A DNA stretch of 64,000 bases. Origin: Paraburkholderia sp. ZP32-5. GTDB taxonomy: Bacteria > Pseudomonadota > Gammaproteobacteria > Burkholderiales > Burkholderiaceae. This document shows positions 15,000-34,007 of the stretch, piece by piece. A model generated the notes under the pieces. It did not search any database, was not told the origin of the DNA, and was given only the letters and a program-made list of their open reading frames with translations. The stretch spans positions 3,162,001 through 3,226,000 of the forward strand of contig NZ_JAJEJP010000001.1 of the NCBI RefSeq assembly GCF_021390495.1. Direction: 5' to 3'. Every line of letters starts with the position of its first letter. The first letter of the stretch is position 1. The translations under genes were made by a program, and so were the position numbers.

Positions 15000-15639
15000 T
15001 TGTACTTTCGGCGAATCGACCTTCTGCCGTCGTATCGCCGAATCTCGCCAGACCCGCGATCTGGTGGCAATATTTCTGACGGCATACCGTCATTTTCCAG
15101 GATTTATATACCGCCGCGCCTTCAGATAACGGCCTCCCTACATCGCCAGATAGACTGCCTGCCGCGTCGGTATTGGGACAGGCAGAGACCACTTCAAAGC
15201 ACGATCGTATGGTGTGTCGCCTTCTTCTGGACCTGAGCGGTAACACGACACCGAGAACCTTCTGTTTTCTCCAGCCTAGGGACCACCGAGTCCGTTACGA
15301 ACATGGCCTGGAGAACGACCCCGACTCATTCATCGTCGAAATCCCCGTGCCGCTTGTGACGAATGTGCCCGCCAGCGTTCCTCGCGCGCTACCACCCGAG
15401 TTCATCACCAACCTCATCTACAACGCCAACTCGCCGACGAGTGCATTCGAGATCCTTTGAATTCCATGGTCCGACGCATGTTTCGCGCTTCCGCGCGTCG
15501 ACCGGTCGGACTGAATATTGGGCGCCCATAAGATGAATAGTAAGTCGGGTCGATTGGCGACCATAGCTTTGTGACTCAATGCACAAGCGAAGCTCACGGT
15601 ACCAGCTGACATTGCCGGCGGATCTTAACTCGCGGCCCC
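15000..15639. other. Decayed or non-coding stretch behind ribE
   Basis: No long open frame survives. The plus-strand piece ending at 15460 (with FIVEIPVPLVTN and PPEFITNLIYNANSP) and minus-strand pieces look coding in parts but are broken by stops and frame changes. I could not assign any to a family. The region reads as AT-richer than ribE by eye. It marks the left edge of the accessory region. Confidence 0.45.
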
Positions 15640-15930
15640 CTCAGTCGAAGATGGACCAGATACGCTCAGCGCGAGCAGGTAAGCAGAGTTCTGGATCATT
15701 GGCAAAAACTTAATGCTCTGAGTGAAGCGGGTGCGATCGAGGAAAGCGTTTGGCTTGACGTCAACCTTCCCCATAAACGTCGTGCGGTCGCGGTTTCTAT
15801 CCGGCTCTCGTCCACGAATTCACCGTCGACAATACGGATGATATCGTAGAACTCACGCTGGATCGAAAGATACTCGGGTATAGAAACCTCTTTGTACTTC
15901 TCGTTCGAGTACCTCTGGCGACGTCCGCAC
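15640..15930 (-). pseudogene. Remnant downstream of the SIR2 fragment
   Basis: In minus-strand order, one frame gives SIPEYLSIQREFYDIIRIVD and EFVDES, then a second frame gives FMGKVDVKPNAFLDRTRF and a tail ending near 15640. The joined text looks like real protein split by at least one frameshift. I cannot name the family. It may be the C-terminal extension of the SIR2 protein or a second gene of the same lost operon. Confidence 0.4.
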
Positions 15931-16646
15931 CTACTCGACGAAAGCGGTGACGCGCATTATCTCTTCATCGGGCACCACGCATTGGACACTGCGGCGACCT
16001 TTTGACTCACCGTCCATCACGGCATGTTCCGACTTATCGCAGCAGCATACGAATACTTGCACGCTGGGACTAGAAAGGGAACGCATGACCAGGTAGGGAT
16101 GTGCTCGTCGGAAAACGATAACCCAAATATGGATAAGTACTGCGCCTGGATTCAATAGCTCATCTTTGGCGACCTCAAAATCTGTTAGCCATGCTCCTCA
16201 TAAGCCGTCTCGTGAAGCACCCACGTCATCGGGTTCACAACGAACATCTGTTCATACCTTGTCCAAAACCACCTTCATCATCTCTTCGGAAGATCCCAAT
16301 TCGGGGAGATGCTCAAGCGTGAAAACCGGATTGTTGATGGCGACGGAAAATGGTTGCAACAACTCATCACTTCATCGTCGAGCAAAGTTTCATCCTGCTT
16401 CCTTCGATTTCTCAAAGCGTCAAAGAACGCTTCTTCGAAAACAAATTCTGATCGTCGAAGCGGCCTTCGAACTTCACTTCCGGTCTTCATCGGTTCGCGG
16501 TCTACACAAGCACGCGGCGTGGCATCACGGTTTCCCTGAGCACAACGAGATGAAGCGCGAAACGCATTGCGCTCGCGTAAGCCGAGTGATGCAAATATCA
16601 CATATTGATCGCGAGATACGATCTTCCTAGGTGAAATTTGGCCCAT
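15931..16646 (-). pseudogene. Decayed SIR2-domain (defence-type) gene, C-terminal part
   Basis: Joining frames on the minus strand gives an ordered set of SIR2-like blocks. These are ELLQPFSVAINNPVFTLEHL (about 16306-16365), YEQMFVVNPMTWVLHETAYE, then DELLNPGAVLI, IFGLSFSDEHI, and YLVMRSLSSPSVQVFVCC. The VNP..W..E pattern followed by FGxSFxDEHI is typical of the SIR2-like domain in bacterial defence proteins such as SIR2-HerA. At least three frame changes are needed and the N-terminal half is missing. It is therefore dead. The assignment rests on pattern memory. Confidence 0.55.
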
Positions 16647-16844
16647 TAGACTTGCCTCAACCTGAATAGAGTTCGACCTCGAAGAGGTTCTGTCAGTAGC
16701 GGACGGTCACTTCAATCCTTAAGCGTTTGCCCAGCAAGGCCCACAAGCTAGTTCTTTAGCCCCCAATACTTTTTCTTGTGAAATCGCGTGCTGAATTCAT
16801 CCAGCCGTCAGCACAGGTTCTTTAATTAGAAAGGGATGTTACAG

Positions 16845-19043
16845 ATGGACAGCACAACAGATAAAACATTGAGACGCAAACGGATCGCAATCGCCGTAGC
16901 AAGCTTGGGACTATCAGTGGCTCTTTTGCAAAGGACAGCGAACGCGCAGGTTCCGTCGCCACAGCCGCAATCGGACCTTGTCAATAGGGATGCACTAACT
17001 AAAGCGCCCGTCAGCGGTGCTGCGGACAGCGCCGTACCCGCGGCCACAGCCAGCTCGACGGCAGCTTCGCCACGCGAATCGGCCGCGGACAAAACCGACA
17101 GCGGAAGCTCCGCGACTAATGGCATTCCAATGACGGTCAACGTGGTTTCGCGCTCGTCCCTCGATCAGCAGCAGCCCAATGATTCCTACGAGGCTTTGCG
17201 CGGCGCGGCCGGCATCTCCAGTTCGGCTGGCGCGTCGGTCGCAGACAACGTTTCGATTCGCGGCATCGCGCTTGAGGGCCGCACAAGCTTTCGGCTTAAC
17301 GGCGCATTGCCCATCAACAACTTCCTGGCAATGCCACTTGAGGACAAGCAGGGAGAAGAAGCGTTGAAGGGCGCCGCCGCTTTACTATTCGGCATTGCAA
17401 GTCCGTCGGGCATCGTCAATCTCGTCACTAAACGCGCAGGGGACAAGCCTAACGCCTCTATCGGTATCGCAGGCAATACCAATGGCGAGATCGTCGGCAG
17501 TGTCGACGTGGGCCGACGCTTCGGCACGGACAATCAGTTCGGGATACGTGTCAATGCGGCGGGCGGCCATCTGTCGAACCAGTTGGAAGACGCGGAAGGC
17601 TCACGGCGCTTCGTGAGTGTCGCGGCGGATTGGCGCGCCAGCGACCGCCTATCGTTCAAGCTCGACTTCGAAGATTACGAGCGCAGCTTCACCGAAAACT
17701 CCACTATCGGACTGCTGTCGCCCGTGAACGGCAAGATCCCGCTCCCCGCAGTGCCGGATCCGAACAAGCTGCTCTCGGGCTCGTGGGCGACCTACAAGGC
17801 TCACGCGCAAAACATCCTGCTGCGCGGAGACTACAAGATTACCGACAACTGGACAGTATTAGCCGAGGCTGGACGTGCCGAGACGGAGCGCGATTTCCGC
17901 GACGCCTCCACGCTAACGAACTACAACTTGACTACCGGCGAGGGCACACTCGTCACCAAGCTCGCTCGTGGACAGGATTACGTGAACAAATACGGCCGCG
18001 TTGAAACCAACGGCAAGTTCGATACGGGGTCGCTTCTGGAGCATCATCTGACCGTCGGCGTAATGTACAACTCTCGCGATCAGAACAATCCCTCGGTGCA
18101 ATCGATCAAGACACCGCAGAACCTGTTTGATCCGATCACTCTACCGGCGCCTGTGCTTACCGCGCCAATCGTGGACCTGCCGCAGGAGAGTAAGGACACT
18201 GGCGTCTATGTCTACGATGCCGTATCCGTCGGCAAGCGTTTCACAGTTATCGGCGGCATGCGCCGCACTGACTACTCACTGACCGCAGCTCAGGCGAACG
18301 GTCCGAACACCCGCTTTCAGACCACCAACTATTCGCCGGCCATTGGTATCACCTTCCTGTTACGCCCTGATACCTCGCTCTATGCAAGCTACATGACTGG
18401 GCTCGAGGAAACGGGCCTCGCGCCCGTCACAGCCGTCAATGCATATCAAGCGCTTCCGCCGTCAGTGGCAAAGCAGAAGGAAGTCGGTATCCGATCAAGC
18501 GCCTTGTACGGCTTCTCAACTACCCTCGCGTATTTCGACATCAATCGCGGCACAGCCCAGCTCAATAACCAGAATGTTTTCCTGATCGATGGCCGCTCGA
18601 CTTACAGGGGCGTGGAGGCGTCGATCGGCGGCGAAATCAACCGCGCATGGTCGTTCAACCTGGCGGGCCAGTACCTGCATGCGCGCACCTCGGGCGCGTC
18701 GGACCCTACGCTTAACGGAACACAGCCAGAGAACACACCTGATTTCACCCTTAGCATGACCGTCGTCTATCGCCCAAGCGTTATTCCGGGAAGCAGCCTG
18801 AGCGCGGGCATGTTCCGCACCGGCGCTCAAGCGGTCAACAACGCCAACCAGGCATTCATCCCGGCTTATACGGTATACACACTCGGTGCGGGCTACACTA
18901 CGCGAATCGCTGGTCATCGGACCACGCTTGCGCTCAACGTGAACAATCTCACCAACGACAGGCATTTTTCGGCGGCTGGCAACGGGCTCCTGATCGTCGG
19001 CCCCGCACGCTCCATCCGCTTCTCGGCGCGGGCAGATTTTTAA
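16845..19043 (+). CDS. TonB-dependent siderophore receptor
   Basis: This outer-membrane receptor of about 732 aa has a signal peptide (LRRKRIAIAVASLGLSVALL, cleaved near AQVPS). A plug domain follows at about residues 85-210 (SIRGIALEGRTSFRLNG, EALKGAAALLFGIASPSG, VNLVTKRAG). A 22-strand-type barrel ends in the C-terminal Phe of RADF. It belongs to the FhuA/FpvA siderophore group. Start choice: the AAAGGGA site sits 8 bp before the ATG at 16845, whereas the ATG at 16836 would overlap that site. No Fur box was found in about 200 bp upstream. The b561 and hydrolase genes behind it suggest uptake of a ferric or esterified ligand. Confidence 0.9.
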   Translation: MDSTTDKTLRRKRIAIAVASLGLSVALLQRTANAQVPSPQPQSDLVNRDALTKAPVSGAADSAVPAATASSTAASPRESAADKTDSGSSATNGIPMTVNVVSRSSLDQQQPNDSYEALRGAAGISSSAGASVADNVSIRGIALEGRTSFRLNGALPINNFLAMPLEDKQGEEALKGAAALLFGIASPSGIVNLVTKRAGDKPNASIGIAGNTNGEIVGSVDVGRRFGTDNQFGIRVNAAGGHLSNQLEDAEGSRRFVSVAADWRASDRLSFKLDFEDYERSFTENSTIGLLSPVNGKIPLPAVPDPNKLLSGSWATYKAHAQNILLRGDYKITDNWTVLAEAGRAETERDFRDASTLTNYNLTTGEGTLVTKLARGQDYVNKYGRVETNGKFDTGSLLEHHLTVGVMYNSRDQNNPSVQSIKTPQNLFDPITLPAPVLTAPIVDLPQESKDTGVYVYDAVSVGKRFTVIGGMRRTDYSLTAAQANGPNTRFQTTNYSPAIGITFLLRPDTSLYASYMTGLEETGLAPVTAVNAYQALPPSVAKQKEVGIRSSALYGFSTTLAYFDINRGTAQLNNQNVFLIDGRSTYRGVEASIGGEINRAWSFNLAGQYLHARTSGASDPTLNGTQPENTPDFTLSMTVVYRPSVIPGSSLSAGMFRTGAQAVNNANQAFIPAYTVYTLGAGYTTRIAGHRTTLALNVNNLTNDRHFSAAGNGLLIVGPARSIRFSARADF

Positions 19044-19101
19044 ACATATCGTCAGATAGGTTTTTTTTCAAAATACATTCAATTCCAGTAAATCACCGAA
19101 C

Positions 19102-19632
19102 ATGTCCACTACCCGTGTAGAACAGAGATACGGTCGTCCTGCTGTGTTGTTGCATTGGACCATCGCGTTGCTGATAGCGCTTGCTTACGTCTCCATGAAC
19201 GTGCGCGGGCCCAAAGGAACACTTAATCGTATCTTATGGTCGGATGTGCACTTCTGGGCAGGTACTCTGGTACTCGTACTGACCGTTTTGCGCGTAATGT
19301 GGCGTGCGCGTGCGGGCGCGCCCCCCCTCCTCCCACAGCCCAAATATTTGATGCTGCTTAGTCACGCAGTACATTTCGTACTGTATGTCTTCATTTTCGT
19401 TCAACCCGTATTAGGGATATTGACACTCGATCTACAAGGCCATCCGCTTGCATTGCCTGGCCTGCCATGGTCGCTTAATTTTGTGGGCCCAAACAGGGAG
19501 CAGGCAAACACCCTCTTCTGGATTCACAAATATCTGGCCGATACTTTTTATTTTGTTATCGGCCTGCATGCCCTTGCGGCGTTGTGGCATCACTTCGTAC
19601 GGCGTGACGGGACCTTGCGCAGAATGCTATAG
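19102..19632 (+). CDS. Cytochrome b561 family di-heme membrane protein
   Basis: This 176-aa protein has four membrane helices carrying the expected histidines: LHWTIALLIAL in TM1, DVHFWAGTL in TM2, LSHAVHFVLYVFIF in TM3, and LHALAALWHHF in TM4. Bacterial cytochromes b561 (CybB/YodB type) pass electrons across the inner membrane from quinol. It lies 58 bp behind the TonB receptor. There it could supply electrons for reductive release of iron from a siderophore in the periplasm (inference). Confidence 0.9.
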   Translation: MSTTRVEQRYGRPAVLLHWTIALLIALAYVSMNVRGPKGTLNRILWSDVHFWAGTLVLVLTVLRVMWRARAGAPPLLPQPKYLMLLSHAVHFVLYVFIFVQPVLGILTLDLQGHPLALPGLPWSLNFVGPNREQANTLFWIHKYLADTFYFVIGLHALAALWHHFVRRDGTLRRML

Positions 19633-19830
19633 CACGCAACCACCAAGCTCTGCCAGCTCACTGACATCTCCGTCGCACCCGACTGCATCTGCTCGCGTGA
19701 GGCGGGTATCGCTTCGCTACGAGAGGTTTGCCAAAAAGAAAATGCCTCGGCCTCGTTTTATGCGTGTCGTCATTCCGAAAACGGACCGAGTCTCGATCAA
19801 ACACTATCGTTCCCCGTTTTAGCGAAATTT

Positions 19831-20988
19831 ATGGAATCCCCGACTATCTGTGCCCCGTCGAACGAACCTGTTTATGCGTCGGAGCGACTCATCAACTTTC
19901 GCACTCGCGGCCACCTGCTCCTGCAAAAGCACTCCACACAGTTGGTGGTCGCCTTTATCGGCGACAGTTGGGTACGAGGAGCTGGCTGGCCGTCGCACGG
20001 CGATCCGGAGCGTCGGCGTTACTTCATGCCAGAACTAAGTGCGGCCCTGCAGGATATTTACGGGGACGCGGGTGGCGGCTGGTGTGGGTTTGGCGACACC
20101 AACTCGACCACCCGGCGTGGTGGCTCCGCGAACCCGGATCGGCTTTATCAGGAAGGGACAGGCTCCTGGACAACCCAGCGTAATAACCGTCCGGTTCCGG
20201 ATATCTGTACCAGTCGCAGCGAAACGCCCGGCGACTCGATTCGAGTCAATAATGTGAGGGGGCCTACCAGTCAGGTCACCCTCTTCTTCATACCTGGCGG
20301 TAGTATCGAATATAGATGGAATGACGGACCATGGCGTTTGCTCGCGCTCTCCCGGTCATCGGTGCAATCGAAACATTTCGAACACGTCGAGGTCACAACG
20401 GCCGTACTAACCGGTTTCCCCCAGCAAGACGGATGGACGCTGGACATTCGGATAGTATCAGGGCCGGTCGAACTGGCAGGCATTGAACACAGGAATAATC
20501 AGTCTGGGATTCGCTTGCATAACCTTGGATCGGGCGGCAGCACTGCGCGAGACTGGTGTGCCGTAGCATCTCCGGGATGGCGTTCCGCACTTGAAACGTT
20601 GGGGTTGCATACGGCGTTATTGCTGTTTGGGACGAACGACCAGAAACGTGGCTCACCAGAAGAACACCGGCAATCTCTGGCGGACATGGTGAACTCGCTA
20701 AGGATGGTGATGCCCGGCGTGGATATTGCCGTCGCCACTCCGCCGGAAAGCGGTGATGTAACTCCGCCCCGCCCGCAAAGACCGATGCGCCTTTATCGCG
20801 ATCAGGCTCGCGCCCTTGCGGCCGAGTTAGCGTTGTGCCATATCGATCTGCAACCTGTGTTTGGCGACGTCGATAAGTATCGTTATGGCGGAACGTGCGC
20901 CTTACTCAACGACTCGCTGATCCATCCGTCAAAGGAAGGTAGTCACCTGATTGCATCGTTTTACCAAAGCTTACTCGACCTGCGCTAG
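19831..20988 (+). CDS. SGNH/GDSL-type hydrolase
   Basis: This 385-aa protein contains the four SGNH blocks: I, AFIGDSWVRGAG with the nucleophile Ser; II, LHNLGSGGST with the oxyanion Gly; III, LLFGTNDQ with the oxyanion Asn; and V, DSLIHPSKEG with the Asp-x-x-His pair. About 100 residues between blocks I and II form a beta-rich insert (SIEYRWNDGPW), as in carbohydrate- or acyl-esterase variants. No signal peptide is seen, so it acts in the cytoplasm unless the start is wrong; no good ribosome site precedes the ATG. An esterase or deacylase acting on the imported compound fits the context. Confidence 0.8.
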   Translation: MESPTICAPSNEPVYASERLINFRTRGHLLLQKHSTQLVVAFIGDSWVRGAGWPSHGDPERRRYFMPELSAALQDIYGDAGGGWCGFGDTNSTTRRGGSANPDRLYQEGTGSWTTQRNNRPVPDICTSRSETPGDSIRVNNVRGPTSQVTLFFIPGGSIEYRWNDGPWRLLALSRSSVQSKHFEHVEVTTAVLTGFPQQDGWTLDIRIVSGPVELAGIEHRNNQSGIRLHNLGSGGSTARDWCAVASPGWRSALETLGLHTALLLFGTNDQKRGSPEEHRQSLADMVNSLRMVMPGVDIAVATPPESGDVTPPRPQRPMRLYRDQARALAAELALCHIDLQPVFGDVDKYRYGGTCALLNDSLIHPSKEGSHLIASFYQSLLDLR

Positions 20989-21324
20989 CGACTGCTACTG
21001 GTAGCTCAGGGAGATGACATTTACTCGCAACAGACTTGGCACTACCTCTGCTAACTCGAAGAAGATCCGTGCAGATGCACGATATCTGGCGTTCGCACCG
21101 GGTTTTTTTCCATTACTCTAACTGTCACAATGGCTGCAGCTCCAGCTACAGGCTTGCGGCAGCTTAATGTGCGCGTCCCGGCATGAATCCGTGGAAGCAC
21201 TCCGCATTCCTCGAGCAAGCTTGCCGTTACTTGTTGAAGCAGGTCAAGCTCGCGACACATAATAGCGGCGTGCAAAGCAATAAACCGTCAACTGACTCAT
21301 CCACTGAACCATTAGGGCAATGGT
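20989..21324. other. Intergenic region before the first LysR gene
   Basis: These 336 bp between the SGNH hydrolase and the LysR gene contain only short frames with no family signature. I see no T-run hairpin. It should carry the promoter of the LysR gene. Confidence 0.45.
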
Positions 21325-22254
21325 ATGACCTTAAGCCAGCTAAGAGCCTTTTGTGCAGTAGTAGACCAGGGCAGTTTTCGGGCGGCTTCTCGATCGCTTG
21401 ATATTGCTCAAAGCGCACTAACGCAGGCCATTCAAACCCTGGAGACGGAGCTTTCGGTACCTCTGCTAACGCGCTCATACGCCGGCATCAGCTTGACGCC
21501 ATTTGGGAAAAAACTTTTAACGCGAGCCCATGCCATCATTCGTGAGTGTGAACAGATCGAACCGGACATGCGTGAAATCGACGGGGCGGAAGCAAATCAG
21601 ATAGCACTTGGAGTGACGTCAGAGCCTTTAATTCAATTGCTCATGCCGGTACTCAATCGCTTTCGACAAGACAATCCTCACGTCAGTGTCAACATCACCA
21701 ACAGTTCAGCACACTTGCTGACCGAACACATCCGCAGCGGTCGGCTTCACTTTGCATTATGTCCGCTGGTGCCAAACATTGCCGATCCCGGGCTCGACAT
21801 CGCTCGCCTTTACCCTTCGTCGCCAGCTATCATCGCACGCGTCGGGCATCCGAAGGCCGGTGCGACCTCGATCACCGAACTCGCCGAATGCGAATGGGTG
21901 GGCCTCAGGCCCGAGGGGATTGCAGGATTTGCACCAAATCGACTTACTCAAATGTTTGCACAGCAAGGCCTCGGCGCACCAAAGATGGTTTTCATCGCCG
22001 AGACCCCACTGGAGAAGCTGTACCTGGTCTCCGAAACGGATTACCTGACAATGGACCCCGGTGTTCTAACTGACGCCAAACTCTTTTCAGGGGCACTTAC
22101 TCGCATTCCCATTCGGGAAGCGTTTAATGCGCGTGACGTCTGCCTGGTTCGCCACAGTAATTCACCCTTACCTGCACCCGCTCAGGCTCTGTCGAATATG
22201 CTTGCATCCTTTGCTCGTCTGCGCCAGATCGTGTCCGGGCCGCTTCGAGTATGA
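21325..22254 (+). CDS. LysR-type transcriptional regulator (paralog 1)
   Basis: This 309-aa protein has an N-terminal winged HTH (MTLSQLRAFCAVVDQGSFRAAS, QSALTQAIQTLETEL) and a periplasmic-binding-like effector domain from about residue 90. It closely resembles the regulator at 28586-29527 in the same order of motifs, including the shared YPSS and CEWV blocks. It is convergent with the alpha/beta-hydrolase gene at the end of the ABC operon. It probably controls the receptor/hydrolase or ABC genes (inference). Confidence 0.9.
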   Translation: MTLSQLRAFCAVVDQGSFRAASRSLDIAQSALTQAIQTLETELSVPLLTRSYAGISLTPFGKKLLTRAHAIIRECEQIEPDMREIDGAEANQIALGVTSEPLIQLLMPVLNRFRQDNPHVSVNITNSSAHLLTEHIRSGRLHFALCPLVPNIADPGLDIARLYPSSPAIIARVGHPKAGATSITELAECEWVGLRPEGIAGFAPNRLTQMFAQQGLGAPKMVFIAETPLEKLYLVSETDYLTMDPGVLTDAKLFSGALTRIPIREAFNARDVCLVRHSNSPLPAPAQALSNMLASFARLRQIVSGPLRV

Positions 22255-22338
22255 CAAACACGGATGTGACACCACCGTTGCTTCCGCCCGTATCCGAGAA
22301 TCGATCCTGGTCGGACATCGGTGATGTCACTGCGGCGC

Positions 22339-23235
22339 TCATTCTGCTGCGCGTCTTTTGACCAGAATCTCCGCCAGAAAGTCCTGCACTCGCTTCAATA
22401 CGCGCATCCGGTCATGCGACACGCCGGGCGCCAATTCGAAGCGTACCGAAATGCCCGCCGCCTCGAACGAAGCTTGCAATGCCTTCAGTCTTTCTGGCCG
22501 CGTTTTGCCTGCGTCATTCGCACCCTCCATATAGTAACGGCTGCCAGGTCGATGTGTGATCTCCCACGTTTCCAGATCCGCGCTGCCAACAACCATATGC
22601 ACAGGTACGCGTGCCAGCGCGGCGGCGTCGAACTCTATGCCAAAGCGCGCTTTCAGATCCCGAACTCCAACCCACCAGTCCTTGTCCGGATCGAGCAGCG
22701 TTACCGAACCGGGCGCACCAATCGATACGGCCCATAGCTTCCCGGGATGAAGAATCGCATAGCGATGAGCGAAGTGACCGCCACCAGAGTAGCCGAACAA
22801 CGCGTAAGTGTCCCAGTTCTGCCGGTACTTCGCAGCAACTTCGTCGACCATGGCCTGAAGGATCAGATCGTACCGAATATCGTTCTCGACCATATACTTA
22901 TATCCGTTGCCGTTGCCGTCTCCTAGCACCCCGATCGGAAACAGCGGACACAGGACTGCACAACGGTTCCAGCGGCCAAACTCCGCGAAGCCGTTACGAA
23001 AATCAAGGAAAGAGTCGCGGCTCGAGCCATGCGTAGCAACCAGCAGATCTAAGGGCTCGCCGGTCGCGGCGACAGGCGGCACGTACATGGTGTAGCAAAA
23101 GCGTGGATCTGCGCGGCAACTGAAAATCGGCGTCAGGCCGAGTTCGTAGGCAGCTTTAGTGCGGGCCGCACTGTACGGCTCATCGCTGGAAATGATCGGT
23201 TTCGAAGTGGCTTTCTGGTTCATGGTCAGAATCAT
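22339..23235 (-). CDS. Alpha/beta hydrolase
   Basis: This 298-aa protein has the alpha/beta-hydrolase nucleophile elbow G-Y-S-G-G (FGYSGGGHFAHRYA). An oxyanion-side LVATHGSSRD segment and a catalytic His in APGVSHDRM near the C-terminus are also seen; the acid is probably in VVGSADLET. No signal peptide is seen. It is the last gene of the ABC-transporter operon, 12 bp behind the ATPase. A cytoplasmic esterase or peptidase acting on the imported substrate is likely. The ATG at 23223 is an alternative start; neither has a clear ribosome site. Confidence 0.82.
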   Translation of the reverse strand: MILTMNQKATSKPIISSDEPYSAARTKAAYELGLTPIFSCRADPRFCYTMYVPPVAATGEPLDLLVATHGSSRDSFLDFRNGFAEFGRWNRCAVLCPLFPIGVLGDGNGNGYKYMVENDIRYDLILQAMVDEVAAKYRQNWDTYALFGYSGGGHFAHRYAILHPGKLWAVSIGAPGSVTLLDPDKDWWVGVRDLKARFGIEFDAAALARVPVHMVVGSADLETWEITHRPGSRYYMEGANDAGKTRPERLKALQASFEAAGISVRFELAPGVSHDRMRVLKRVQDFLAEILVKRRAAE

Positions 23236-23247
23236 TCTGGGCTAGTA

Positions 23248-24939
23248 CTAACTTGATTGGGCGATCGCAGGCCACGTGCGCGTGACGATCCTGAAGCCAT
23301 CGTGGCGATTGCCGCGTAGTTCGGGTACCGCCTGCAACAGACGTCGCGTGTATTCGTGGCTGGGATTGTCGAAGACTTCATCTCGCGATCCCGTCTCCAC
23401 CACCTGACCACGGAACATGACGCAGACGTTGTCGGCAATCTGCTCGACAACGCCAAGGTCATGGGAAATCAGCAGGCAGGCGAAACCGTATTTTTTTTGC
23501 AGGGAAACAAGCATTTCGAGAATTTGCTTCTGCACTGTTATATCGAGCGCTGATACGGGCTCGTCGGCTATGATCACTTCGGGGCGCGTCACCAGGGACC
23601 GCGCGATTGCCACTCGCTGGCGCTGGCCTCCGGAAAGCTGATGCACCAGGCGGGCGCCATGCGACTCAAGCCCGACGTCGTGAAGCGCTATGGCCACCCG
23701 TTCGGCCCGTCCACGCTGACTCAGCGATCGATCGAGCCGCAGGCCCTCTGCTATCAATGCATCCACCCGCATGCGCGGATCCAGTGATGAATAGGGATCC
23801 TGAAACACCATCTGAATGGAACGGCGCGCAATTCTGAGCCTGGTCGATTTTCCACTCAGATAGGGCTCTCCATTGAGCAGAATCTGGCCTTGGGCGATGG
23901 GTATCAACCCCAGAATAGCTTTGGCCAGGCTTGTCTTGCCGCTACCGGATTCGCCGACAATTGCCAGCGTCTCACCTTTGTGTATTTCGAACGAGGTGGG
24001 ATACACGGCTCGAATCGCTTCGCGGCGGAACATCATGCCCGATACGTCGTAGTCGATGGCCACGTCCTGCACGCTGATAACGGGAACGCCAGGTGCATGT
24101 GAAGCTCGCGTGCCCGCCGGCAAGTCCGCGCGCCGGGGCATCGCATCAAGCAAATTGAGCGTGTACTCATGGGATGGCCGCGTCAACACCTTGGCCACTG
24201 GACCTGTTTCCACTATCTGGCCACGTCTCATCACCATAACCTGCTCAGTGTAGGCACCGACCAGCGCGAGGTTGTGGCTGATGAAAATCAGTGCGGTATT
24301 CTGCTCGCGGGTGAGTTCGAGCATCAGATCGAGCACTTCTTTTTGCACGATGCAGTCCAGCGCCGTGGTCGGCTCGTCGGCGATCAGGAGGCGCGGCTGT
24401 AACAGCATTACCGCGGCAAGCAGAAGCCGCTGACGCGTACCACCGGAGAATTCATGAGGATACCGTTTCAAACATCCGAATGGGTCACGTACCCGAACGC
24501 GCTCCAACATAGCCACCGCCGCCTCGATCGCACGCTCCCTGGGCATCTTGCGGCGACGGATCAATGCCTCGGTCAATTGTTCCCCGATGCGCATGGCGGG
24601 ATTCAATGAGACCATCGGCTCCTGAAACACCATCCCGATATCGGTACCCCGTGTTTGTAGCCATTGCCCACGAGTCTGCTGCAGCAAATCGCGGCCATCG
24701 AACCGCACATTGCCAGTTGCAATACGGGCATTTTCGGGAAGCAAGCCCAGCAGAGCCCGACCTACCATGGTCTTGCCGCTGCCGGATTCGCCCACGACTG
24801 CCAAAGATTGGCCGGCATTCAGCTTAAAGCCGATTTGTTCGGTGACGTGCCTGATTTGTCCATGACCATTGCTGAAGCCGATCGTCAGGTCTTCGACATG
24901 CAGCAGCGGTGCATCGGCCGGTGGTTTGCTAGAGACCAT
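23248..24939 (-). CDS. Dipeptide/oligopeptide ABC transporter, fused double ATPase
   Basis: This 563-aa protein contains two complete ABC ATPase domains, equivalent to DppD and DppF joined as in GsiA or YejF. Domain 1 has Walker A GESGSGKTMVGRA, signature FSGGTRQRL and Walker B LLIADEPTTALD. Domain 2 has GESGSGKTSLAKA, LSGGQRQRV and VIIADEPVSALD. Oligopeptide-specific tails follow both domains. Its ATG overlaps the permease stop by one base (TAATG). It powers uptake by the membrane pair encoded upstream. Confidence 0.95.
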   Translation of the reverse strand: MVSSKPPADAPLLHVEDLTIGFSNGHGQIRHVTEQIGFKLNAGQSLAVVGESGSGKTMVGRALLGLLPENARIATGNVRFDGRDLLQQTRGQWLQTRGTDIGMVFQEPMVSLNPAMRIGEQLTEALIRRRKMPRERAIEAAVAMLERVRVRDPFGCLKRYPHEFSGGTRQRLLLAAVMLLQPRLLIADEPTTALDCIVQKEVLDLMLELTREQNTALIFISHNLALVGAYTEQVMVMRRGQIVETGPVAKVLTRPSHEYTLNLLDAMPRRADLPAGTRASHAPGVPVISVQDVAIDYDVSGMMFRREAIRAVYPTSFEIHKGETLAIVGESGSGKTSLAKAILGLIPIAQGQILLNGEPYLSGKSTRLRIARRSIQMVFQDPYSSLDPRMRVDALIAEGLRLDRSLSQRGRAERVAIALHDVGLESHGARLVHQLSGGQRQRVAIARSLVTRPEVIIADEPVSALDITVQKQILEMLVSLQKKYGFACLLISHDLGVVEQIADNVCVMFRGQVVETGSRDEVFDNPSHEYTRRLLQAVPELRGNRHDGFRIVTRTWPAIAQSS

Positions 24940-25769
24940 TAACGGGGTCCTCTCATGCGGGGATCGAGCAAATCGCGAATCCCATCGCCCAGTAGATTGA
25001 TGCCGAACAAAGCGAGCGAAATCATCGCTCCTGGGAACAGGACCAACCAGAGCGCATGGTCGATCGCGGTGCGGCCATCGGCCAGCATGCCGCCCCAGGT
25101 TGGTTCAGGCGCCGGCACGCCAAGGCCCAGAAAACTAAGCGCGCTCTCGGCCAGCAAAGCAGAGCCGAACAGCGAAGTGGAAAAGACCAGCAATGAGGCG
25201 AAGCAATGCGGCAGCACATGGCGCATCAACGTCCAGCAGCCGCTATTGCCCATGGTGATCGAGGCCGTGACGAAGTCCTTTTGCCTTAATGACAGTGTGG
25301 CGCCCCGAGCAATGCGACTCACCGAGGGCGTGTAAGCCAAGGCCAGTGCAACCACCACGCCCCATTTCGACGGCCCGAGCACTGTCATGATGCCGAGCGC
25401 CAGAAGCAACCCGGGAAACGCCATGAGCGAATCGATCAACACACAGGCCAGACGGTCACACCAACCCCCAACATAGCCGCAGACGGTGCCAATCAAGGCG
25501 CCTCCAATCAGCGCCGCCAGGACAGAACATGTGCTGACCGTCAAGCTGGCGCCGTCACCCGCCATGATGCGCGAGAGCACGTCACGGCCGAATTCATCGG
25601 TACCAAACCAGTGCTGCGCTGACGGTGCCGCATACCGTGCCTGCAAGTTCACGTCGAGTGGCCCATAAGGTGTGAAGAACAGACTGATCAAGGCAATCAG
25701 CAACAGCAGGCCGACAAGTACGCCGCCAATAATGAGGTTGACCCTTACAGGCTTACGGAATGTGGTCAT
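24939..25769 (-). CDS. ABC transporter permease, DppC type
   Basis: This 276-aa inner-membrane protein has about six helices. Its N-terminal TM and periplasmic loop with HWFGTDEFGRDVLSRIMAG are diagnostic of DppC/OppC. The EAA loop ahead of the last helices (LPHCFASLLVFSTSL...) contacts the ATPase. It lies 6 bp behind the DppB-type gene. Confidence 0.94.
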   Translation of the reverse strand: MTTFRKPVRVNLIIGGVLVGLLLLIALISLFFTPYGPLDVNLQARYAAPSAQHWFGTDEFGRDVLSRIMAGDGASLTVSTCSVLAALIGGALIGTVCGYVGGWCDRLACVLIDSLMAFPGLLLALGIMTVLGPSKWGVVVALALAYTPSVSRIARGATLSLRQKDFVTASITMGNSGCWTLMRHVLPHCFASLLVFSTSLFGSALLAESALSFLGLGVPAPEPTWGGMLADGRTAIDHALWLVLFPGAMISLALFGINLLGDGIRDLLDPRMRGPR

Positions 25770-25775
25770 GATGAG

Positions 25776-26717
25776 TCAGAGCTTGAGACGAGGATCGAAG
25801 ATCGGGTACAGCAGATCGACGATCAGATTGACCAGAACGTAGAGCAGCGCAATCAGCAACATACAACCCTGAACCACCGGATAATCCCGGGCATAGATGC
25901 TTTCGATCAGTAGACGGCCCATGCCGGGGAGCGTAAACACCGTTTCGATCACCGCGCCGCCTGCCAGCAGATGTCCCAGTACAAGTCCGATCACCGTCAA
26001 CGTCGAACCGAACGCGTTGGGTAACGCGTGGCGCAGCAGCACGCCTGCCTCGGTCAAACCCTTTGCCCGCGCGTGCGCGATATATTCGAGGCGCAGGACC
26101 TCGATGCCGCTCGCCCGCATCATGCGAGTGATGACGGCGATCTCTCCCAACGTGACGGCAATCACCGGCAGAATCAGGTATTTGAAGGAACCCCAGCCGG
26201 CCTGAGAAAACGATTGATAGCCGAAAGTCGGCAGCAAATGCCAGTGCACGCCAAATATCCAGATCAGCAGGATTCCAACCCAGAAGCTCGGGATGGAAAC
26301 CAGAAAAATGCTGGCCATGACGATAGTCAGGTCGCTTCGACGATTCTGCGCCCAGGCTGCCAACATGCCTGCAGGAATGGCCACCAGACAGGCAACGAAG
26401 GTCGCCGCGAGTACGATTTTCGCGGTTACCGGAAAGGTTTCGCGAATCAAATCCAACACGGGCTGATGTCGCACGATGGACATACCAAAGTCCGCTTCAA
26501 GCAGATGCCGCACCCAGATGAAAAACTGCACCGGCATTGCCTGGTCCAGCCCGAATGTATGCCGCATCTGTTGCAACAACGCCGGATCGTTGACATCGCC
26601 GAGCATAATCACCGCTGGGTCACCGGGAATCGCGCGGATCATCGCGAACACCAGCACCGTGACCACGACCACCGTAGGAATTGCCAGAGCAAGGCGCTTG
26701 ATAATGAAACGCAGCAT
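25776..26717 (-). CDS. ABC transporter permease, DppB type
   Basis: This 313-aa inner-membrane protein starts with MLRFIIKRLALAIPTVVVVTVLVF, the standard DppB/OppB first helix. The FGLDQAMPVQFFIWV loop, the EYIAHARAKGL EAA-type loop and GAVIETVFTLPGMGRL follow. It forms the channel with the DppC-type partner. It starts 8 bp behind the binding-protein gene. Confidence 0.94.
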   Translation of the reverse strand: MLRFIIKRLALAIPTVVVVTVLVFAMIRAIPGDPAVIMLGDVNDPALLQQMRHTFGLDQAMPVQFFIWVRHLLEADFGMSIVRHQPVLDLIRETFPVTAKIVLAATFVACLVAIPAGMLAAWAQNRRSDLTIVMASIFLVSIPSFWVGILLIWIFGVHWHLLPTFGYQSFSQAGWGSFKYLILPVIAVTLGEIAVITRMMRASGIEVLRLEYIAHARAKGLTEAGVLLRHALPNAFGSTLTVIGLVLGHLLAGGAVIETVFTLPGMGRLLIESIYARDYPVVQGCMLLIALLYVLVNLIVDLLYPIFDPRLKL

Positions 26718-26725
26718 AAATCGGC

Positions 26726-28303
26726 CTAATCCTTAGTCACGTTAAAGAACCTCTTCATCCCCAATGGCCAGGTACCCATACCGTGCACATGGCTGCTGAC
26801 GAGCGTGACATCCGGCGTGTCGTTCAGAACGATCATGGGTACATCCGCGAGCATCATTGCGTGCAACTGCGCAAATACTTTGCTTCGCTGATTCTGGTCC
26901 GTTACGTTTTCGAGGCTTTCCAATAATGCAAGCGCCTTGGGGTTCTCCCATTGAACCATTGGATTCTCATCTTTCTTGCCGAGTACATCGCCATACATCA
27001 GCGACGGTTCAATTCGGGCCGAATAACCGAACGACATCAGTTGAAATTTTCCGGAGCGGTAATCGTTGATCTGCTTGGCCCATTCCACAACCCGAAGCTT
27101 GACCGTGATGCCTGCTTGCGCAAGCAGGGATTGCATATAAATTGCCGCAGTAAAAATATGCGGCGTGTTGTGGCTGGTTTCGAGCGTCAGCGGTTGTCCC
27201 TTGTAACCGACCTGAGCAAGCAGACGCTTGACCTCATCCATCCGCCGGGTATAGCCGACGGCATCCTCCGGCGTATGAAGCGCGTCGCCGTCCGGCGTCA
27301 GTGACGGGTTGTAAGGCGAGCGACCATCCGTCACGGCTTTGACCACACCAGGCAGATCAACCGCCAGGGCAATTGCGCGGCGCATGCGCACGTCCGCCAG
27401 CATGGGATCGCGTGTCTGCATCAGAATCGCGGCAGGATCAGCTCCCGGCCCCGTAAGCAGATGCCACGCCGGACTGGATGGCGGCAGATCGCTCATGGAC
27501 ACCTTGACCATGTCGATCTGTCCCGACAGCAGTGCGGAAAGCTGTGCCGCTTCATCCGGGATAACCACAAAGCGCACATCCGCTTCGGCGCGTTTTGCGC
27601 CGGCCATTCCGCTATACGGTTCAGAACGCGGCTTATATCCGGTAAACGGTTTAAGCACCACATATTGCCCCTTCTTCCAGTCGCCAAAAATGAAAGGGCC
27701 GGTGGCGACGGGAGCGAGCCAGTTGCCCGCACTGTCGACGCTGGAGGGACTCAATATGGCTAACGGACAGCGTCGCTCGACCATCCGGTTGAGAAACAGA
27801 GCGGATGGCCGGCTAAGATCGAACACCACGGTTTCGGCATCGGGTGTGGTGACCGACAGGACCTTGGGTCCGCTGCGCCCGTTGTAGTAGCCTCGGCATA
27901 CAAATCCAGACTTCGATTTCATCAAATAGTCGTAACTCCATTTGACGTCCGCCGATGTCATTGGAGTGCCGTTCTGGAATAGAACGCCGTGCCTCAGGTG
28001 AAAAGTGTAGCGTTTGCCATCGGGAGAAATACTCCAGCTATCAGCCAGCATCGGACCGATTGATAGATCGCCCTTCAGAGCGACCAATGACTCGACTACA
28101 TTCGCCAGAATTTCATCGGTATAGCCATTGCGTAGCACGTTGCCCGGCATCGATGTGGGCGTGTCGGTAGAAATGGCGAAGCGGATCTCGCCAGGCGACG
28201 AAACGGAGGTCGATAGCGTGTGCGGTGCGGGCGCCGCGGTCCATATTATTCCGCCCAGCAACGCCGCACCGAGGAGGCAGCCAGCCCAAACTTTTCTCTT
28301 CAC
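26726..28303 (-). CDS. ABC transporter substrate-binding protein, SBP family 5
   Basis: This 525-aa periplasmic protein has an N-terminal export signal (WAGCLLGAALLGGIIWTA) and family-5 features. These include ESLVALKGDLSIGPMLADSW, the YTFHLRHGVLFQNGTPMTSADVKWSYDYL block, and later RMRRAIALAVDLPGVV. There is no convincing lipobox. Family 5 covers peptides but also nickel, opines, antibiotics and siderophore-like compounds. It is the first gene of a five-gene operon (binding protein, DppB, DppC, fused ATPase, hydrolase). Confidence 0.93.
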   Translation of the reverse strand: MKRKVWAGCLLGAALLGGIIWTAAPAPHTLSTSVSSPGEIRFAISTDTPTSMPGNVLRNGYTDEILANVVESLVALKGDLSIGPMLADSWSISPDGKRYTFHLRHGVLFQNGTPMTSADVKWSYDYLMKSKSGFVCRGYYNGRSGPKVLSVTTPDAETVVFDLSRPSALFLNRMVERRCPLAILSPSSVDSAGNWLAPVATGPFIFGDWKKGQYVVLKPFTGYKPRSEPYSGMAGAKRAEADVRFVVIPDEAAQLSALLSGQIDMVKVSMSDLPPSSPAWHLLTGPGADPAAILMQTRDPMLADVRMRRAIALAVDLPGVVKAVTDGRSPYNPSLTPDGDALHTPEDAVGYTRRMDEVKRLLAQVGYKGQPLTLETSHNTPHIFTAAIYMQSLLAQAGITVKLRVVEWAKQINDYRSGKFQLMSFGYSARIEPSLMYGDVLGKKDENPMVQWENPKALALLESLENVTDQNQRSKVFAQLHAMMLADVPMIVLNDTPDVTLVSSHVHGMGTWPLGMKRFFNVTKD

Positions 28304-28585
28304 TGCAGTTGCTCGCGGCGAGCCGAGTCAGGGAAACTGTGCAAGAAGCGTTCAGACACGCGGCAAGCTAACATCAGGTATTTCCTATCAAAGAGAACGA
28401 AAAGATGCCGTTGTTGTTGGGAGAAGAACAAGCACGGATCGTAGAGTTTAAAAATTGCGCCGGGAAGTCAGGTGAAATAGATCGAAAGCCGCTTTCCGGA
28501 TCACTAGGGAAAACGTTAAGTTGAATGAATTTTTTTGAAGTTGTAACTCATTTCCACCTGCTTTCGGCGCGCCTACGCATTCCAT
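28304..28585. promoter_or_regulatory. Divergent control region of ABC operon and LysR gene
   Basis: The binding-protein gene and the second LysR gene start back to back across 282 bp. This is the classic LysR layout, in which the regulator binds T-N11-A sites between the two genes. I could not single out one site. Layout is the only support. Confidence 0.5.
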
Positions 28586-29527
28586 ATGACATTGACCCAA
28601 CTCCGCGATTACTGTGTTGTAGTAGATCAGGGCAGCATCCGCGCGGCTGCGCAGGTGCTGAAGATAGGCCAGAGCACACTCACACGTGCCATTCAAAATC
28701 TGGAATCGGAGTTGGGCTCCGTGTTGTTGATTCGATCCCACCACGGCTTGACACTGACGCCGGCAGGCCAGATTTTTCTGACGCATGCACGTGCCCTAAC
28801 GCACGGCTGGGAACGCGCGATTCAGGATGTAAAAAATCAGTCTGCCGAGCTGGAAGGCGAGGTAGCCGTCGGCGTAACCGTCGAACCTCTGGCGGAATTC
28901 GTTTTGCCCGTCTTTGAACTTTTCCGGTCACGGTACCCCAAGGTACTGGTTCGTGTCGCAAGCAGTCAGACAAACATGCTTGTTGAACGAGTACGGGGTG
29001 GCAGCCTGGACTTCGCGATTTGCTCGTTGCCCGTTCAAGCCAGTCAATTGGATTTGTCGATCGAGACGATGTATCCGTCTTCGGTCACTGTTATTGCCCG
29101 CAGAAACCATCCGCTCGAAAAGGCTGACTCGATTCGAGACCTGATCAATTGCGAGTGGGTGGTAACTCAGCCAGGCCAAATCGTCGGAGGGGGACCCAAT
29201 CAGATCAACAGCATCTTCGCGACGCTGGGTATCGGTAAGCCTCGCATCGCCATGACCACCAGTTCATTGCTCGAGACCTTGCACATTGTGGCTGAATCCG
29301 ATTGTCTCGCGGTTGCGCCCAGCGTGTTAGTCGGCCTGAAACTATTCTCCCGCTCTCTGGTACGGATTCCCATCGCGGAGACATTCGACATAAGAAACAT
29401 CTGCCTCGTGAGCCGAAACGGTTCGGTTCAAACCGGGATCTCCCAGGAACTTATGCAAATGTTAACGTCCTACTCGCGGCTATATCGGCAATCGGGAGTC
29501 GGTATTAACAAGGTCACTTCTCCGTGA
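28586..29527 (+). CDS. LysR-type transcriptional regulator (paralog 2)
   Basis: This 313-aa protein has an HTH at residues 1-60 (MTLTQLRDYCVVVDQGSIRAAA, QSTLTRAIQNLESEL) and a LysR substrate-binding domain. It shares blocks with paralog 1 along its whole length: the VDQGS start, YPSS at about 170, the CEWV block, and an IPI-ETF end section. Divergence from the ABC operon makes it the probable operon regulator. Confidence 0.92.
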   Translation: MTLTQLRDYCVVVDQGSIRAAAQVLKIGQSTLTRAIQNLESELGSVLLIRSHHGLTLTPAGQIFLTHARALTHGWERAIQDVKNQSAELEGEVAVGVTVEPLAEFVLPVFELFRSRYPKVLVRVASSQTNMLVERVRGGSLDFAICSLPVQASQLDLSIETMYPSSVTVIARRNHPLEKADSIRDLINCEWVVTQPGQIVGGGPNQINSIFATLGIGKPRIAMTTSSLLETLHIVAESDCLAVAPSVLVGLKLFSRSLVRIPIAETFDIRNICLVSRNGSVQTGISQELMQMLTSYSRLYRQSGVGINKVTSP

Positions 29528-30008
29528 ACCTGATTCTGAAGCGGTTGTATCGGGGCACTTCGGCGCATCTCAAGCAAATCTCCCAACGCGCAAGCGCCGC
29601 CTAGCCTGCCCACTGCACAGACGGCCCTGAACTGCCTCAAAGCCACACCGTATTCCAGATAACCAGCCGAATCGGTCGGTTGACGATCGGTGTGTGCAGC
29701 CCGGCTATTCTCCTTCGTGATCGCTTATTCAGATCGAACTGCACTGCAGCCGGATTCCATAAAAAAACATTCATAACGAGAATGCCGGACTCAGCTGGAT
29801 TGCGCGAAAGCTTTGAGAAATTATGCGAAGGAAAAGGTATTGAGCGCCGATGATCGGCCATTCAGGCGCACCGTCCACGCCCGCAAAGCTCTCAACAACC
29901 CGCTACGGTCAACTTGCCCGGCGACACAGCCAAGACCTGCCTGGCGGCTTCGGCAAGCCGCAAACTGGCAGCCGTCATCGGCCCCATTCGAAACAGAATT
30001 CCGATCTT
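29528..30008. other. Intergenic region before the serine hydrolase
   Basis: These 481 bp contain no frame with a family signature. The in-frame upstream extension of the hydrolase (from 29850) looks non-coding in character. A stretch near 29761 (ataaaaaaacattc) is AT-rich and may lie in the hydrolase promoter. Nothing else stands out. Confidence 0.4.
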
Positions 30009-31499
30009 ATGCCAAATCCGAACGCCCGTTACTCCTCAGCAACGAGGAAGCCGTCTGATGGGTTGCCGCGTGCCACCCCCTCATCGCTCGGCATCGACGC
30101 CGATCGCGTCATTACCTTTCTCGACGCAGTCGAAAACGCCGGGCTCGACGTGCATGGCTTTATGTTGTCCCGTAATGGGAAAGTGGCTGTCGAGGCCTTT
30201 CGTTGGCCCTACCGTGCCGACCGGCCGCGCATCATGCATTCGGCGACGAAAAGCTTTGCCGTCTGTGCCATTGGATTGGCACTTGATGAGGGGCGTCTGC
30301 GACTTGATGACCGCGTCTTATCCTTCTTCCCCGAATTACACGGGCAGCCAGTGTCGGACTGGATGGCACGCATGACGGTCGAGGACCTCCTGACCATGCG
30401 TATCGGCCATGAAAGCGAGACATCTGGAGCCGCCTGGCGTTTGCTCGACACCAGTTGGACGGCTGAATTTTTCAAGATTCCGCTGGTATGCGAACCGGGC
30501 ACCGTTTTTATGTACACGAGTGCCGCGAGTTACGCGCTCTCGGCGATCCTGAGCCGTGTGACTGGCGAGACCATCCATGATTACCTGAAACCGCGCCTGT
30601 TTCAGCCGCTCGGTATCTCCGGCGAAACCTGGGACATCAGCCCGGATGGCGTGAATCCTGGCGGGAACGGATTGTCAGTCAAGCTCGTCGACCTGTTGAA
30701 GCTCGGCATTTTGCATGCGCAGGGAGGTATGTGGGAAGGACAGCGCGTGATGCAGCAATCCTGGATTGACCTGGCGACGCGGTCACACGTCGAGACGGGC
30801 GAGTATGGCTACCACTGGTGGACGCGCCCCAATGGCACCTATAGTGCAATCGGCAAATTCGTTCAGATGACCACGGTTCATCCAGCCCAAGGAATAGTTT
30901 TAGCAGTAATGGCTGCTATCGAGGAGAGCGAGTTGCTATTCCCGTTCATCGAGGAACATCTCTGGCCTGCTTGCGAGCCGATTCGATCACACTCAGACTC
31001 GACAAAGGCGGATGACCGGCTTGCTGAAAAACTCACCCGGTGGCAATCGGAGCAGGCTCCCGCAAGCTGGAAAATGCTCCTTAAAGCGGACGGCGCGGTT
31101 GCACTGGAGGAAACGCGATCCTACGTGATCGCCCCGAATCGACACGGGGTGGTCGGTGTTGAGTGGGTCTTCGCGTCGGACCGTTGTGAAATCACCCTGA
31201 TAGACGATCTGGGGCGGCACAGCATCGCTGGAGGAGTCGGTCATTGGATCGAAGGCCGCACTAGTATGCCCGGACGCGATTTGCATCACGGCTACGAAAT
31301 GCAGGATAGCCCCGTAGTTGCTCGGGCAGAACGGGTTGAGCCGACGGCTCTGAAGATGATCTGGATTTTCCCCGAGACAGCTTTTCGCGACACGGTAACA
31401 GCGTCTTTCGACGGTGCAAAGATGGTGTTGTCTCGTGAGGTAAATATTAATGGTGACGCGAGGCGGCACGACGATCTTTACGGAACGCTTCTGCGTTGA
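30009..31499 (+). CDS. Serine hydrolase of the beta-lactamase class C fold
   Basis: This protein of about 496 aa starts its conserved domain at LPRATPSSLGI (residue 13). The catalytic tetrad S78-A-T-K81 (MHSATKS) is intact. The second motif reads Y-T-S (MYTSAASYAL) in place of the usual Y-x-N. DDRVLSFFPEL and MTVEDLLTMRIGHE are family blocks. Such proteins include esterases, D-aminopeptidases and amidases as well as beta-lactamases; no signal peptide suggests a cytoplasmic enzyme. An extra beta domain fills the last 150 residues or so. The start was chosen by homology; an upstream ATG at 29850 is in frame. It probably processes the imported substrate. Confidence 0.82.
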   Translation: MPNPNARYSSATRKPSDGLPRATPSSLGIDADRVITFLDAVENAGLDVHGFMLSRNGKVAVEAFRWPYRADRPRIMHSATKSFAVCAIGLALDEGRLRLDDRVLSFFPELHGQPVSDWMARMTVEDLLTMRIGHESETSGAAWRLLDTSWTAEFFKIPLVCEPGTVFMYTSAASYALSAILSRVTGETIHDYLKPRLFQPLGISGETWDISPDGVNPGGNGLSVKLVDLLKLGILHAQGGMWEGQRVMQQSWIDLATRSHVETGEYGYHWWTRPNGTYSAIGKFVQMTTVHPAQGIVLAVMAAIEESELLFPFIEEHLWPACEPIRSHSDSTKADDRLAEKLTRWQSEQAPASWKMLLKADGAVALEETRSYVIAPNRHGVVGVEWVFASDRCEITLIDDLGRHSIAGGVGHWIEGRTSMPGRDLHHGYEMQDSPVVARAERVEPTALKMIWIFPETAFRDTVTASFDGAKMVLSREVNINGDARRHDDLYGTLLR

Positions 31500-31603
31500 G
31501 AAAGCCGATGCGAATGCTTCCGGCCGGCAGCGTGTACTAGAAAAGCGGCGGGCGTCGTATGAGCGTCGCATCGCAACCGCTCACACAACACCCCGTTCGG
31601 ACT

Positions 31604-31966
31604 TTACTTCCCCTCCTTCTGCAGCAGCTTGATGCTATCTGCCGCCGGCGGCTTCGGCAGTGAAGCCAGATACGCATGGATGTCGCTTAAATCCGCGTCA
31701 CTGAGGATTTTTTCCGAGAACGGCGGCATCGCGCCGGACGGCGCCCGTACATAATTGGCAAACGCCACGTAGGGCAGAAGGCCGACCGCAATGGCCGGCC
31801 CGACGCCGCCCTGCCCGACCGTGCCATGGCACAGGTAGCAGCCATCTTTCAAAAAATGTTCGTGGCCGCGCGCAATGGCATCGGAGGACGTTTGCGCAAG
31901 CGCCGGTGTCAGCAACGCCCACGACGCGGCAAGCGCGAGAGAAACAGACTGTCTGAAAACGTTCAT
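31604..31966 (-). CDS. Class I c-type cytochrome
   Basis: This 119-aa protein has a Sec signal peptide (cleaved after PALAQ), the heme motif C43-Y-L-C46-H47 and a Met80 axial ligand in SGAMPPF. It is a single-heme periplasmic electron carrier. It starts 10 bp behind the Tat-exported ThDP enzyme. The pair probably works together, with this cytochrome taking electrons from the enzyme. The start at ATG 31966 begins the signal peptide. Confidence 0.9.
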   Translation of the reverse strand: MNVFRQSVSLALAASWALLTPALAQTSSDAIARGHEHFLKDGCYLCHGTVGQGGVGPAIAVGLLPYVAFANYVRAPSGAMPPFSEKILSDADLSDIHAYLASLPKPPAADSIKLLQKEGK

Positions 31967-31976
31967 GGCGGCTCCC

Positions 31977-33935: not shown

Positions 33936-34007
33936 TGTTTTCACTCGTTGAGGCAAAACGATCAGGATCACGCGCGCGCCGCGCACATGCGGCGCCAGGC
34001 GCGACGT

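Follow-up and report, generated by a model that had tools for sequence, protein, structure and literature searches.

ATP-binding cassette (ABC) importers of family 5 (Dpp/Opp/Nik; DppA, 1dpp) combine a binding protein with two permeases and two ABC domains, and the same parts are encoded by a block of eleven genes at positions 16836-31499 of the window, the 64,000-nucleotide stretch of the soil bacterium Paraburkholderia sp. ZP32-5 analysed here (host genome 9.09 Mb, four contigs). The importer of the block belongs to this family, since it has an SBP_bac_5 binding protein, two BPD permeases and an ATPase with two ABC domains, all in one run. Where DppA has its peptide-anchoring aspartate, or one column beside it, the window protein has Arg430. 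The best solved match of the binding protein was AgaA (6hlx, 122.5 bits), an Agrobacterium opine-type binding protein with agropinic acid as its ligand, but the match covers residues 70-432 only; unlike the AgaA opine system, the block held no recognised opine oxidase, although no search was aimed at one. The TonB siderophore receptors FemA (8s34) and FhuA share plug and barrel with the receptor of the block, which differs in having no Fur-like box. Cyanophycin dipeptide loci share an AstE/AspA-type enzyme with relatives of the block, but not with the block itself. Proteins of the class C beta-lactamase fold (Lsa45, 8dc1; NylB-type) share PF00144 and the catalytic residues with one of the hydrolases of the block, which carries about 170 further C-terminal residues. 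The literature search returned no paper describing this gene set, as judged by title and the start of the abstract.

Importer, LysR genes and hydrolases in relatives

Since parts of the set also stand together in the genomes of relatives, the comparison supports the view that the importer, the LysR genes and the hydrolases are a recurring unit, beyond what chance would give. We propose, with a probability of about 0.55, that the block is a modular, probably acquired catabolic island which imports an acidic amide or ester conjugate that is then hydrolysed in the cytosol. The island is real and recurring and is built of known parts. The gene inventory of the first-pass annotation was confirmed throughout, as all eleven genes were present as open frames of the families it had named; it was also right that the block contains no biosynthesis gene. 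The genes are as follows.

16836-19043, plus strand: TonB-dependent receptor, 735 amino acids, with a putative role in the unit
19102-19632, plus strand: cytochrome b561, 176 amino acids, linkage not found elsewhere
19831-20988, plus strand: SGNH hydrolase of a rare family, 385 amino acids
21325-22254, plus strand: LysR regulator 1
22339-23235, minus strand: alpha/beta hydrolase, 298 amino acids
23248-24939, minus strand: fused ABC ATPase, 563 amino acids
24939-25769, minus strand: permease (DppC position)
25776-26717, minus strand: permease (DppB position)
26726-28303, minus strand: family-5 substrate-binding protein, 525 amino acids, GTG start, Arg430
28586-29527, plus strand: LysR regulator 2, divergent from the binding-protein gene
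29850-31499, plus strand: class-C-fold serine hydrolase, start probably at 30009

The plus-strand genes thus run from the receptor to the first LysR gene and resume with the second LysR gene and the class-C-fold hydrolase, while the minus-strand run reads from the binding protein (GTG at 28303) through both permeases and the fused ATPase to the alpha/beta hydrolase. The two LysR proteins are 43% identical to each other.

Gene order was compared in 62 stretches, 7 of which had been fetched for other genes and 55 of which were importer loci; merging duplicates left 48 distinct importer loci, and all counts were made by script. The importer relatives were confirmed by an alignment-based scan (a scan with the single binding protein gave none confirmed), and L157-L159 had been fetched partly for their class-C gene. 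Absences are soft, because the locus flanks stop at about 10 kb. Binding-protein relatives at 57% identity or more were present in 7 of the 249 family genomes, the own genome included, and a relative at 1e-80 in 11 of the 144 genus genomes. The binding protein, both permeases and the ATPase occurred together in 46/48 importer loci (some cut by a contig end), and the remaining two had a lone binding protein beside an alpha/beta hydrolase. LysR genes were found in 18/48 loci, with two of them in 6/48, and class-C, alpha/beta hydrolase and SGNH genes in 12/48, 11/48 and 4/48, respectively; class-C stood together with LysR in 9/48 and with the alpha/beta hydrolase in 4/48. Further partners were C45 (31/48), ornithine cyclodeaminase (19/48), an AstE/AspA-type enzyme (18/48), AptA (18/48), AcnA (14/48) and a close porin at 50% identity or more (11/48). 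The loci came in two flavours, one with cyclodeaminase and LysR, mostly with AstE/AspA, in Paraburkholderia, Caballeronia and Pandoraea, and the other, in Achromobacter, Bradyrhizobium and some Paraburkholderia, with AptA, for the most part joined by C45 and GntR.

Several loci resemble the window more fully. In P. acidicola (L084) the alpha/beta hydrolase, importer, porin, LysR (65%), cyclodeaminase and class-C genes lie in one locus. In Agrobacterium and Shinella the class-C and ATPase genes share 4 bases, and the last gene of their run encodes an alpha/beta hydrolase (41-43%); the annotated Rhizobiaceae run reads binding protein, two permeases, ATPase, serine hydrolase, creatininase family protein, aldolase, N-formylglutamate amidohydrolase and hydrolase. 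Importer, LysR, class-C and alpha/beta hydrolase were not seen together in every one of the four groups: within their flanks the Pandoraea importer loci had no class-C gene, and in the Rhizobiaceae loci no LysR gene matched closely. Among plasmids, 11 records had a class-C relative at 1e-80, three of which (CP048520, CP058527 and OZ012600) were left out of the neighbourhood view. The importer stands beside it in five records (SBC1, NC_015184, CP133675, CP032928 and OZ000535) and near it by coordinates in two more (SBC2 and SSA_523), and in a Variovorax plasmid the class-C relative lies beside a tripartite tricarboxylate binding protein.

The first-pass annotation had read importer, LysR and hydrolases as one uptake-and-hydrolysis unit, and their recurrence among the 48 loci bears this out. 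It had also named parts at unrelated loci in relatives as evidence to the contrary, and here the outcome was divided: the unit recurs, but some parts do occur elsewhere, namely the alpha/beta hydrolase by C45 without the importer (L187-L189), SGNH without the importer (G266) and the Variovorax class-C gene. C45 and alpha/beta hydrolase genes are adjacent in L187-L189 and L021-L024, with importer genes present in Pandoraea and absent in three Paraburkholderia genomes. In L243 (11921-14329) a single long coding sequence, annotated as a creatininase family protein, covers the site of the separate class-C and creatininase genes of relatives.

The catalytic residues of all three hydrolases are conserved. 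In the class-C-fold protein (PF00144), S131xxK134 and Tyr222 were invariant in 13/13 aligned sequences; since most of its relatives start at about residue 61 of the 549-residue frame, the ATG at 30009 is probably the start. The 58% relative in L157, the sole protein scanned against curated class C beta-lactamase models, scored about 18-23 bits against cut-offs of 415-882. The alpha/beta hydrolase matched no Pfam family at 1e-3, and its GxSGG serine S150, D220 and H274 were invariant in 8/8 aligned sequences. The SGNH hydrolase (PF13472) has the GDS serine, the Asn and the His of its class: among 22 aligned sequences S46 was near-invariant (P0141 is without that stretch) and N269 and H365 were invariant. 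Its motifs are far apart, with GDS at residues 44-46 and the next conserved block near residue 231, which suggests a large insert within the domain.

The SGNH gene was at first regarded as an ordinary stray gene, a view that was dropped because the family is rare and mostly adjoins the importer. Only 22 proteins were retrieved at 1e-20 among 8000 scored candidates; the gene occurred in 3/249 family genomes, all three beside the importer, in 2/144 genus genomes and in 2 plasmids. It lies beside the importer in five of six distinct genomes or records (the own genome, two Pandoraea, SBC1 and SBC2), the other being G266. The chance that both SGNH genomes other than the own one fall among the six importer genomes is 5e-4, with the proviso that both are Pandoraea and not independent. 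In G266 (L185, 9791-12001) the SGNH relative lies within a 736-residue frame in a different gene neighbourhood.

Binding site and predicted substrate

In the HMMER alignment to DppA, Arg430 of the binding protein falls on, or one column beside, the column of the peptide-anchoring Asp, D408, which holds the peptide amine. The amine-anchoring Asp of free-peptide importers of family 5 was not found in the window protein, its place or the neighbouring column being occupied by Arg430. This arginine was invariant across 24/24 aligned binding proteins and was present in 44/44 relatives (41 without three duplicates), down to 36% identity. Because Arg430 replaces or adjoins this anchor, the ligand is predicted to offer a carboxylate at this site and to lack a free amine there. 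An ordinary dipeptide importer with peptidase-like hydrolases, serving peptide scavenging, is the reading that all four family-5 parts would suggest by themselves, and DppA-type proteins are among the best solved matches of the binding protein. The arginine in its 44 relatives argues against this reading, as do partner hydrolases of amidase- and esterase-type families, and we consider it quite improbable. By NCBIfam scores the permeases were nearest to Opp2/Nik-type and the ATPase to YejF, at values below the cut-offs of those models.

Further clues come from the partner enzymes in relatives. The cyclodeaminase scored 560.4 in NCBIfam against a cut-off of 350 and matched the solved ornithine cyclodeaminase 1u7h at 467 bits, and in Achromobacter (L089) AptA scored 684.5 against a cut-off of 500 and C45 302.2 against 85. 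As these enzymes pass their cut-offs, the relatives probably hydrolyse amides and thereby set free ornithine or another amino compound. The AstE/AspA enzyme of relatives matched 8ein, a cyanophycin dipeptide hydrolase, over 357/372 residues (227 bits). This resemblance would fit the scavenging of beta-aspartyl, cyanophycin-type dipeptides, in which the ornithine cyclodeaminase could use ornithine derived from arginine, but no CphZ-type or AstE/AspA enzyme is among the eleven genes of the block and such dipeptides carry a free amine, so that we give this explanation very little credence.

The acidic-conjugate island would work as follows. The family-5 binding protein would take a small acidic compound with a blocked amine, an amino acid or diamine conjugated through an amide or ester bond, and the importer, with inward transport as the predicted direction, would deliver it to the cytoplasm. 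The hydrolases, which showed no signal peptide by eye, would act there on its amide and ester bonds, and the products would pass to general metabolism. The compound or one of its products is probably the signal for the two LysR proteins. Outer-membrane entry in this strain is probably through the TonB receptor, with a porin in its place in some relatives. If this is true, a dipeptide-type importer subfamily of alpha- and betaproteobacteria should be annotated for acidic conjugates, not peptides, and a TonB receptor and a porin would replace each other at the outer membrane; the exchangeable hydrolase partners of the relatives offer a testable way to the substrate.

The receptor and cytochrome b561

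The receptor gene stood as annotated except for its start, which lies at 16836; position 16845, given at first, is the second ATG. The protein carries PF00593 and PF07715 and belongs to the siderophore subfamily just over the cut-off (TIGR01783, 225.6 bits against 223.5), with FemA (8s34) first and BauA also among its best solved matches. Its best relative outside the own genome was 44% identical in the 249 family genomes and 43% in the 144 genus genomes, and a large protein collection held 11 other receptor clusters at 65-90%, one of them named P. fungorum.

The first-pass annotation had raised the possibility of xenosiderophore capture, in which a foreign ferric chelator would enter through the receptor, pass inward by way of the importer and be broken by the hydrolases, with b561 helping to reduce the iron. 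The subfamily and solved matches of the receptor agree with this, as do a 45.6% receptor relative in an iron- and tricarboxylate-flavoured locus and AcnA beside 14/48 importer loci. Against it, the best Fur-like site before the receptor had 10/19 matches, a value reached by 97% of shuffles (with one E. coli-type consensus), no gene in the block could be named as a siderophore-type inner-membrane importer, and 11/48 loci have the porin instead of the receptor. The AcnA neighbourhood is also common, its partner gene occurring in 150/249 family genomes, and the aconitase-GntR neighbour was accordingly given little weight as support for a citrate substrate. With receptor and b561 both in 0/48 importer loci, the xenosiderophore proposal was not supported and is in our judgement improbable. 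A variant in which the strain eats the chelator, taking an ornithine- or diamine-polycarboxylate through the TonB receptor, gripping its carboxylate by the arginine and opening it with exchangeable cytosolic hydrolases for carbon and nitrogen and not for iron alone, appears similarly improbable. In a Diaphorobacter plasmid (L247, 8769-18828) two annotated TonB siderophore receptors surround a two-component pair, a tripartite tricarboxylate binding protein and a siderophore-interacting protein.

Two observations point weakly to a tie between the receptor and the unit. On the second large contig of the own genome (L173, 9418-17715), an intact class-C gene (59%) and an aconitase-GntR pair are surrounded by broken receptor, SGNH and LysR pieces. 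The receptor is represented by two pieces that differ in frame (83% over 155 and 58% over 196 residues) and lie no more than 8 kb from the class-C gene; a 65-residue SGNH piece and LysR pieces are also present, and we regard L173 as another locus of this type that has partly decayed. In addition, the relatives P0149 (receptor), P0016 (class-C) and P0138 (SGNH) all come from Joint Genome Institute (JGI) metagenome contigs of 41,009 bases, most simply one and the same contig, as judged from the equal size. Both observations favour the receptor as a part of the system, as first annotated, but its absence from all importer loci does not. Cytochrome b561 (PF01292) fared worse: it lay within about 1.5 kb of 1/29 receptor relatives and no copy was seen in L173, so neither its proposed membership nor a reduction step received support from the comparison.

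Receptor and b561 could instead be bystanders, the unit consisting of importer, LysR genes and hydrolases fed via a porin encoded elsewhere. The importer loci and the single b561 neighbour speak for this, but the remnants in L173 and the shared size of the JGI contigs speak against it, and we hold it to be rather unlikely. The acidic-conjugate island has several points weighing against it: the missing receptor in importer loci; the class-C, alpha/beta and SGNH genes, each of which is missing from most of these loci within their flanks; and the cyclodeaminase, AstE/AspA, C45 and AptA genes, which suggest the substrate of the relatives and are absent from the window. The best cyclodeaminase relative in the own genome is only 30% identical, and with those genes absent the compound of this strain may therefore differ from that of its relatives. 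The arginine argument is weakened by depending on one residue, on the role ascribed to the DppA aspartate and on a column uncertain by one. Finally, 3 Sigma-70 promoter-like sites were found against 7.5 expected.

Composition and boundaries of the block

The eleven genes sit between ribE (14364-14999) and a thiamine pyrophosphate (TPP) enzyme gene (31977-33986). GC content was 0.563 across 15001-31900, against 0.627 before and 0.644 after, and the lowest-GC stretch of the same length within the window starts at 14601. On the ribE side the order aminotransferase-ribD-ribE was kept in 8/8 fetched relatives, and strong similarity to them stops at 14962-15124, with one extra weak piece in one relative (15277-15440, 69%). 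None of the right-flank genes tested was found within the fetched 8.7-11.7 kb of these relatives (less than 0.9 kb in L235). Because the similarity ends at ribE and no tested right-flank gene follows, the block is taken as a variable and probably acquired region. No mobility gene was seen among the eleven, a repeat search of 14900-32200 gave short pairs only and none at the island ends, and terminator-like sites were at shuffle level.

The 1.8 kb at 15000-16835 (GC 0.522) held no convincing gene and no match to the genes of the system better than E 0.09 (15000-16836). This DNA, perhaps decayed, showed weak similarity to stretches near ribE in relatives.

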